Of a stretch of DNA of 64,000 nt, positions 24,742 through 26,882 are shown piece by piece. Within the stretch, counting starts at the first letter, position 1. Each line of letters starts with the position of its first letter. The position numbers were made by a program, and so were the translations under genes. The notes below the pieces were generated by a model. The model saw nothing but the letters and a program-made list of their open reading frames with translations, did not search any database and was not told the DNA's origin. Origin of the DNA: Haloferax mucosum ATCC BAA-1512 (GTDB taxonomy: Archaea > Halobacteriota > Halobacteria > Halobacteriales > Haloferacaceae); the NCBI RefSeq assembly GCF_000337815.1, contig NZ_AOLN01000017.1, positions 62,001 through 126,000 of the forward strand, written 5' to 3'.

Positions 24742-25125
24742 ATGACGACGACAAATTCGACACGGCTCGCCGGTATCGTACTGCTCGCGGTAGCCGCGCT
24801 GTTCGTGTTTCCGGTCCTCCTCGGAATGTCCGGGTTCTTCGGCGCGGGACCAATGGGCTGGGGCGGCGGCTGGATGCACGACACGTGGATGCACGGTGGA
24901 GGCGGCGGAAGCGCCGTCCCGTGGTGGATGTGGGGAACGGGTCTTGTCGGCCAACTGCTCCTCATCGCAGTGCTCGTCGGCGGCGGCGTCCTGCTCTTTC
25001 GAGCGGTGGGTGGGGACGGAACCCGCGGCGATGAAGCACTCGCCGAACTGCGTAGCGCCTACGCCCGCGGCGACATCGACGACGAGGAGTTCGACCGACG
25101 GCGCGAACGCCTCGAACGCGACTGA
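24742..25125 (+). CDS. SHOCT-domain small membrane protein
   Basis: A 127-aa protein with two hydrophobic helices (about residues 9-32 and 68-90) flanking a Gly/Trp/His/Met-rich loop (MGWGGGWMHDTWMHGG), and a C-terminal SHOCT domain, LAELRSAYARGDIDDEEFDRRRERL. SHOCT domains mediate oligomerisation. The His/Met-rich loop could bind a metal, which is only suggestive. ATG 24742 was chosen over an upstream GTG. Confidence 0.85.
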   Translation: MTTTNSTRLAGIVLLAVAALFVFPVLLGMSGFFGAGPMGWGGGWMHDTWMHGGGGGSAVPWWMWGTGLVGQLLLIAVLVGGGVLLFRAVGGDGTRGDEALAELRSAYARGDIDDEEFDRRRERLERD

Positions 25126-25378
25126 GACCCCGGTATCCTCTCGAACAACCGACTTACTCGTCGAAGTCGGGGCGCAGATTGTTGCAGGCGAAACGAAGGG
25201 GTTCGAGACGAAGTGGGGAGGTCGAGGGGAGAAAGATGGGTTCAAAGAGAGAAAACGAGTTCGAGGAGAAAGGGAAGTCGGTTCGAAGAGCGGAACACAG
25301 ATTCGAAGGGAACAGACCGTGAACTACCGAGCGAGTCGAAGTCAAGGGCGAGTGATTCATCCGGAACAGCTATCAATG

Positions 25379-25394
25379 TTTAGGCCAACCTAAA
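25379..25394. promoter_or_regulatory. Perfect palindrome TTTAGG-CCAA-CCTAAA, probable metal-regulator operator
   Basis: Six-base arms, four-base spacer. TTAGG half-sites of this kind are typical of DtxR/IdeR/SirR-type iron or manganese repressors. It ends 3 bp before the ATG at 25398, so bound protein would cover the transcription start of a leaderless gene. Confidence 0.55.
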
Positions 25395-25397
25395 TAT

Positions 25398-25559
25398 ATG
25401 GGTTCGGAGTCACAGAACGGTGGTCTCATTTCGGTTCTGCGGCAGTTCAAGCCGAAGCGGACGCGGATTCGGGTGGCCGCGTGCGTCGCCGCAAGCCGGT
25501 CGCTAACGGAGTCTTCCGACGACGAGACCGGCAAGGAACAAGAAGAAGAGATAGAGTAG
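25398..25559 (+). CDS. 53-aa basic/acidic small protein, putatively metal-regulated
   Basis: Reading frame MGSESQNGGL...EEEIE, with a basic middle (KPKRTRIRV) and an acidic tail. It starts 3 bp downstream of the palindrome at 25379-25394, consistent with leaderless expression under a DtxR-type repressor. No recognised family, and not proven to be translated. Confidence 0.45.
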   Translation: MGSESQNGGLISVLRQFKPKRTRIRVAACVAASRSLTESSDDETGKEQEEEIE

Positions 25560-25649: not shown

Positions 25650-26882
25650 TCAGATTTCCGCGACGGTTCCGAGGTCGGGTGCGGTAGCCTCGTACCCGTC
25701 TGCCGCCAATTCCTCGGCGAACGCTCCACAGCGGTCGCCGTGGTTGACGAAGACGGGAGCGTCGCGGTACTCGTCGAGGAACGAACGAAGCCCGTGTTTG
25801 TCGGCGTGCGCGGAGAAGTCGTACATCTCGGCGCGTGCGGCGACCGGCACGACGCCGCCGTTGAGTTCACACCGGCCGCGTTCGACCAGTTCGCGTCCGG
25901 GCGTCCCTTCGACTTGGTAGCCGGTGAGACAGATTTTGTTCGTCGGGTCCTGCCGAATCTCGGGAATGTAGGTCATCGCCGGCCCGCCCGAAAGCATCCC
26001 GCTCGTAGTGACGATAACCGAATTTTGCCGGGCGATACGGCGTCGTTGACCGTCGCGTCCCGAGACGATTCGAGCGTTCGATTTCGCCCGCTTGAGCGCG
26101 TCCGAATCGCGGACGTAGTCGGGGTGATTGCGGAGCATCTGGAGGACATGCGTGCCCATGCCATCGACGTAACAGTCGATGTCGTGCGCGTCAAGCACCA
26201 TAAGAATCTCCTGTGTGCGTCCGATGGCGAAGGCGGGAACCACGACCGTTCCGCCCTGCCAAATCGTGGTCTGCACCGACTCGATGAACCGCTTTTCGAC
26301 CGTCGCGCGGTCGTCGTGTTCCACGTCAGAGTACGTGGATTCGCAGATAACGACGTCGGCGTCCGGCCGGTCGGTCGTGCCCGAGACCAATCGCTGGTCG
26401 TCGGTGTGGAAGTCGGCCGTATAGAGCAGTCTCGTCTCGCCGTCATCGATGAGGACGTGCGCGCTTCCGGGGATGTGACCCGCGTTGTAGAAGGTGACTT
26501 CGTGACCGGCGGCGGTGAAGGTCTCGCCGTAGTCGTGCGGGTCCGACTGTTGGGTCATCCGCTGGATGTGCGTCTCGGTGAACGGGCAGTCGTAGGTGCC
26601 GCCGTGCAGATTCAGGGTGTCTCGCGCGAGTGTGAGCGCGAGTTCGTACGTCGGCGGCGTCCAGTGGACTGCCGGCCACTCGGCACCGGAGAGAAGCGAG
26701 GGGACCGTCCCGACGTGGTCGAGGTGGCCGTGAGAGACGACGACGGCGTCGGGTTCGACAGTGCCGACGGGGAACTGCGGCGGATTGCCGGTCAGCATCC
26801 CGTAATCGAGAAGCAGTGAGTCGTTGACGAGAATCGCACTGCGCCCGACCTCCCCGGCCCCGCCGAGGAACTGGAGTTGCAT
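25650..26882 (-). CDS. Beta-CASP metallo-beta-lactamase ribonuclease (aCPSF2-like)
   Basis: A 410-aa nuclease. The MBL motif HGHLDH (residues 51-56) binds two zincs, and further ligands appear in the AGHIPGSAH and YTADFHTDDQ segments. The beta-CASP cap has VTTSGMLSGGPAM and IPEIRQDPTNKICLTGYQ, and the C-terminal MYDFSAHADKHGL and FVNHGD complete the fold. There are no N-terminal KH domains, so it is closer to archaeal CPSF2 than CPSF1. Likely RNA 3'-end processing or decay. Start CAT at 26880-26882. Confidence 0.9.
   Translation of the reverse strand: MQLQFLGGAGEVGRSAILVNDSLLLDYGMLTGNPPQFPVGTVEPDAVVVSHGHLDHVGTVPSLLSGAEWPAVHWTPPTYELALTLARDTLNLHGGTYDCPFTETHIQRMTQQSDPHDYGETFTAAGHEVTFYNAGHIPGSAHVLIDDGETRLLYTADFHTDDQRLVSGTTDRPDADVVICESTYSDVEHDDRATVEKRFIESVQTTIWQGGTVVVPAFAIGRTQEILMVLDAHDIDCYVDGMGTHVLQMLRNHPDYVRDSDALKRAKSNARIVSGRDGQRRRIARQNSVIVTTSGMLSGGPAMTYIPEIRQDPTNKICLTGYQVEGTPGRELVERGRCELNGGVVPVAARAEMYDFSAHADKHGLRSFLDEYRDAPVFVNHGDRCGAFAEELAADGYEATAPDLGTVAEI

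Follow-up and report, generated by a model that had tools for sequence, protein, structure and literature searches.

Does the 53-residue open reading frame (ORF) that starts directly beneath an iron-box-like palindrome in Haloferax mucosum ATCC BAA-1512 represent a real gene, and, if so, is it controlled by iron? The locus lies in a stretch of 64,000 nucleotides (contig NZ_AOLN01000017.1, positions 62,001 to 126,000), hereafter called the window. An initial annotation had placed the palindrome TTTAGG-CCAA-CCTAAA 3 bp from the ATG of this ORF and proposed that a DtxR/SirR-type repressor would sit on the start site. The placement was confirmed, with the palindrome at 25379-25394, the ATG at 25398 and the end of the stop codon at 25559. 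The features of the locus are listed below in window coordinates.

24742..25125, plus strand: SHOCT-domain protein gene, upstream neighbour (Pfam)
25361..25369, plus strand: BRE-like element CCGGAACAG (sequence and upstream alignment)
25370..25377, plus strand: TATA-like element CTATCAAT, adjoining the palindrome and about 25 bp 5' of the ATG
25379..25394, no strand: palindrome TTTAGGCCAACCTAAA, predicted DtxR-family repressor operator
25398..25559, plus strand: microprotein gene, 53 aa, probably leaderless (ORF, orthologs, codon bias)
25650..26882, minus strand: beta-CASP metallo-nuclease gene (Beta-Casp and RMMBL domains), convergent (Pfam, tblastn)

Promoter and neighbourhood of the microprotein gene

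The low-GC pocket that the initial annotation took as support for a real promoter is indeed present (GC content of 0.38 at 25350-25399 versus 0.56-0.76 in most neighbouring intervals), and the purine-rich 3' flank is likewise low in GC. The element at 25361..25369 is presumably a BRE, judging from its position and the BRE consensus; at the equivalent place, most other Haloferax species read ACCGcAACG in the upstream alignment. The TATA-like element is nearly matched by CTATCAATATTTAGG at another boxed gene (L050) of the same genome, and its centre, about 25 bp 5' of the ATG, is compatible with a leaderless transcript. Such transcripts are common in haloarchaea, and that of the micro-ORF is probably one of them. 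The terminator and sigma-70 scan was of little value for archaea.

A scan of the window for the exact 16-mer with ≤3 mismatches allowed matched this site alone (chance mean 0.02). The bare palindrome at ≤2 mismatches was observed once versus 0.31 expected and is not rare enough for the window by itself to be decisive. The beta-CASP gene is syntenic in 15/15 Haloferax genomes (tblastn), and the upstream SHOCT and kinase genes adjoin the microgene in nine of the 15. Both the beta-CASP and the SHOCT genes stand outside the microprotein unit, which we take to be monocistronic. HVO_0873 to HVO_0875, assumed to cover the neighbour's number, were searched for without useful result.

The palindrome as a predicted iron operator

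The genome-wide search for the palindrome that had been suggested in the initial annotation returned 27 exact TTAGGN4CCTAA sites in the 3.37-Mb genome versus one site for the reversed pattern. When one mismatch was allowed, the enrichment was lost (44 sites versus 54 reversed-control sites in the genome), which leaves exact arms as the informative ones. The regions around the other 26 sites were fetched and their genes predicted by codon bias; for the 27 sites together, ORFs of at least 150 aa have 11 starts at a distance of 17-19 bp from the box versus 17 at the remaining offsets between 14 and 74.

Pfam analysis of 20 near-box proteins matched seven of them (six above the cut-off, one just below) to Peripla_BP_2, the siderophore-binding-protein type. 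This set includes some proteins not directly under a box, such as a ferritin-like protein whose gene ends before its nearest box, and leaves out three long boxed ORFs (L050, L052 and L056), all with lipoprotein-like starts. One box precedes an Aminotran_3 and Pyridoxal_deC pair arranged as in siderophore synthesis. The remaining families include SBP_bac types, NifU, a DtxR-type regulator and the ferritin-like protein, and some near-box genes belong to families without an obvious iron link. Taken over the genome, many boxes lie 17-19 bp 5' of siderophore-type substrate-binding lipoprotein genes or ahead of siderophore-synthesis genes. The initial annotation would have given up its proposal had the palindrome been missing from iron-regulated genes; it is found in front of siderophore-type binding-protein and biosynthesis genes, and this position identifies it as a predicted iron (DtxR-family) operator.

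Similar boxes occur at start sites in 24/24 other genera of the family, with 117 matches versus five controls (one place being counted twice), and the long ORFs at them encode mostly Tat-type lipoproteins as judged by eye. The H. mucosum genome encodes four DtxR-type regulators. TroR is said, in the title of the TroR study, to be the primary regulator, and Leyn and Rodionov reportedly described a 'ferR' signal for the Haloferax iron regulon in 2015. In the available part of a study of Hfx. volcanii, the fhu genes carry a regulon signal, iron is linked to Idr, SirR and TroR, and proteins are listed for a 10-fold iron-starvation response (PMC11349517).

The operator-to-ATG offset of the micro-ORF is 18 bp, equal to that of the boxed siderophore-type binding-protein genes. 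Given an operator common to siderophore-uptake genes, the microprotein is very probably made only under iron shortage. Its promoter has one box only, versus two boxes about 36 bp apart at several other boxed genes.

By inspection of the H. mucosum genome, eight such pairs were noted, with boxes 36-37 bp apart and the second copy at times carrying one mismatch:

C12: 27755/27791
C20: 8118/8154
C20: 16756/16792
C1: 118477/118513
C1: 284604/284640
C18: 147764/147800
C19: 21973/22009
C4: 231246/231283

The pairs flank the BRE/TATA region of the promoter, an arrangement that suggests two repressor dimers clamping it. On C12, an 87-aa ORF (L057:3310-3573) starts 18 bp 3' of a paired box, with an ORF of 270 aa and the gene of a DtxR-type regulator after it; it is possibly another small iron-controlled protein. 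An exact box without a nearby ORF start was seen at L053:3109-3122 (C6:91608). About 105 bp to its right, at L053:3214, begins a short ORF whose C-terminal end is basic, and the box could mark a promoter for a small protein or RNA. Another exact box with a TATA-like stretch (L055:3253-3266, C10:109752) lies 204 bp ahead of the box of a siderophore-type aminotransferase gene, with no convincing ORF between the two, and possibly serves a leader or small RNA. In addition, a large gene for a DUF5059 and copper-binding (plastocyanin-type) lipoprotein (L059:807-3272, C18) starts 18 bp 3' of an iron box, hinting at a copper protein used during iron starvation.

Conservation and distribution of the microprotein

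A profile built from seven members found an ortholog, with one match per genome, in 15/15 Haloferax genomes; eight named species with matching loci are H. profundi, H. elongans, H. marisrubri, H. larsenii, H. marinum, H. denitrificans, H. massiliensis and H. sulfurifontis. The protein is 43-53 residues long across the genus. All 15 genomes retain identical box arms, the 3-bp gap, the ATG and the reading frame; the spacer is CCAA in 13 of them, and the other two have one other sequence each. Pairwise differences per codon among the 15 genomes are 0.05/0.03/0.40 at positions 1/2/3 for codons 20-36, and 0.35/0.25/0.48 for codons 1-19. The median dN/dS over codons 1-36 is 0.27 (101 of 105 pairs, four having no usable dS), and 16 residues are invariant. 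Judged by these substitution patterns, the micro-ORF is a real gene under purifying selection.

The microprotein has no match in Pfam or NCBIfam. When 392 genomes of the order were searched with the profile, 13 strong matches were obtained, all in Haloferax, and weak ones in 19 further genomes (E 8.9e-5 to 0.009), mostly to part of the core. No box was present at the 19 weak loci that were scanned (17 from this search and two from another). At the syntenic beta-CASP site in 24 other genera (25 loci, a few shortened by contig ends), neither an exact box nor the core motif was detected. Moreover, the core was seen by eye in none of 125 predicted starts at boxes in 24 genera, some of which were counted twice in overlapping stretches. 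The microprotein thus appears to be Haloferax-specific, with the proviso that very short or diverged relatives may be missed. The idea that its gene start was copied from a boxed binding-protein gene was unsupported (first-codon similarity of 0.26 versus 0.23 for other ORF starts). Among the papers listed by literature searches on Haloferax small proteins, ribosome profiling and iron, none was seen to name such a protein, and a line in a published supplementary table is quite possible.

Properties of the predicted protein

The invariant core, RTRxRVxACVAASRS, spans R21 to S35 and is followed by an acidic tail. Its computed pI is 11.6-12.0 and the net charge of residues 10-36 is +6 to +9 in 15/15 genomes, while the ORFs of the window have a median pI of 4.6, with only one of 52 above 8. 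The whole protein has a charge of -2 in the window copy, where the long acidic tail makes it slightly negative, and one of -1 to +4 in the other copies. A single Cys is present and invariant in all 15 genomes. Two AlphaFold models are helical with low confidence (pLDDT 60.5 and 59.4) and differ in detail, one having two helices and the other one long helix; given this low confidence, a binding role has no structural support. An amphipathic helix was unsupported (moment 0.10 versus a shuffle mean of 0.32), and the raw value for strand-like alternation is 0.55.

Proposed mechanism and alternative explanations

We propose that, under iron-replete conditions, a metal-loaded DtxR-family repressor, by inference TroR, would occupy the palindrome between the TATA box and the start codon and block transcription. 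Under iron starvation, the repressor would depart and the microprotein would be produced alongside the siderophore-uptake proteins that have the same operator. Of the DtxR/SirR-type control claimed at the outset, the box between the TATA-like element and the start, its offset as at iron genes and its conservation in 15/15 genomes have held up, whereas repressor binding, and with it repression, the identity of the regulator and induction by low iron, is what we infer from them. The microprotein is too small for an ordinary enzyme, and its basic core fits docking to RNA or to an acidic protein. Most likely, the invariant core would form such a docking surface, and the microprotein would then be an iron-starvation regulator acting like FbpB or MntS. 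We are highly confident of an iron-controlled microprotein gene as such, and consider this gene and its control together with a non-enzymatic role to be likely. The iron-starvation regulatory role is a tentative guess. The full account, in which this would be the first archaeal iron-starvation regulator microprotein, its gene having arisen within Haloferax and been put under the iron repressor, and its core binding RNA or an acidic partner and thereby re-routing iron use, is more speculative still.

Several other explanations were weighed. The conserved unit might be an iron-repressed small RNA in which the ORF is incidental: the promoter is strongly conserved, and bacteria commonly possess iron-repressed regulatory RNAs. 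However, the codon-position bias of codons 20-36 and the frame kept throughout the genus indicate selection on the protein, and there is no Rfam match at the locus, so that this reading seems very improbable, a dual-function RNA being possible. The absence of the gene from the syntenic site in 24/24 other genera and the lack of relatives with convincing scores beyond the genus would also be expected of a recently captured promoter driving a selfish or near-neutral short ORF, but the 16 invariant residues and the median dN/dS point to a selected function, and a copied gene start is unsupported; this explanation is hardly credible. Manganese sensors exist among DtxR-family proteins, and any of the four DtxR-type regulators might in principle make the box respond to manganese or another metal instead of iron. 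Such a paralog is improbable as the explanation, since the boxes lie at genes of siderophore-uptake and siderophore-synthesis type and since, in the accessible text on Hfx. volcanii, a signal at fhu and a tie between iron and Idr, SirR and TroR are described (PMC11349517).

The alternative that deserves more weight, unlikely as we consider it, is an MntS-like metal-trafficking partner that would bind to a transporter or exporter and adjust it, or hand on iron, rather than act on gene expression. It draws on the close parallel with MntS in regulation and evolution, as far as the part of the MntS report that was available describes it (PMC4361602), and on the invariant Cys, yet the sequence has no apparent membrane helix and, beyond its single Cys, few of the classic ligands.

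Comparison with known systems

To our knowledge, no metal-starvation microprotein has been characterized in archaea, and such proteins are known from few bacteria. Within the Haloferax DtxR-family regulon (Idr, SirR, TroR), the microgene has the same predicted operator at the same offset as the siderophore-type binding-protein genes, but it encodes a microprotein that belongs to no named family, rather than a transport protein or a siderophore enzyme. It has genus and size class in common with the C(P)XCG zinc-finger micro-proteins of Haloferax volcanii, as presented in the available portions of two reports (PMC11241148, PMC10716476); with a single Cys in 15/15 genomes, it lacks the C(P)XCG pair and does not belong to them.

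The closest parallels are bacterial. According to the available text, Escherichia coli MntS has 42 aa, is repressed by MntR:Mn, and is recognizable only in close relatives, with mostly silent changes (PMC4361602). The Haloferax protein resembles it in its very small size, its predicted DtxR-family-type operator, its restriction to close relatives and the predominance of silent changes, whereas MntS is a bacterial manganese protein and the Haloferax protein is marked by a basic invariant core. Bacillus subtilis FbpA, FbpB and FbpC are small basic iron-starvation proteins (48 aa for FbpB) suggested, in the part of the source available, to be helpers of an iron-sparing RNA (PMC7430163). Here the likeness lies in small size and a basic core, the whole-protein charge in Haloferax being -2 to +4; the Fbp proteins are bacterial and Fur-controlled, while the microprotein stands under a putative DtxR-type box. 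Both parallels are drawn as analogies. MntS and FbpB illustrate, in the same partial sources, that small metal-starvation proteins can modulate transport or gene expression (PMC4361602, PMC7430163).

Beside these bacterial systems, the microgene stands as a conserved example, present in one copy throughout a genus that is amenable to genetics, for which both the condition (low iron) and the class of regulator are clear. It also exemplifies a lineage-restricted gene recruited into an old regulon. If true, the regulator reading would add Haloferax as a third lineage in which the MntS/FbpB mode of action arose independently.
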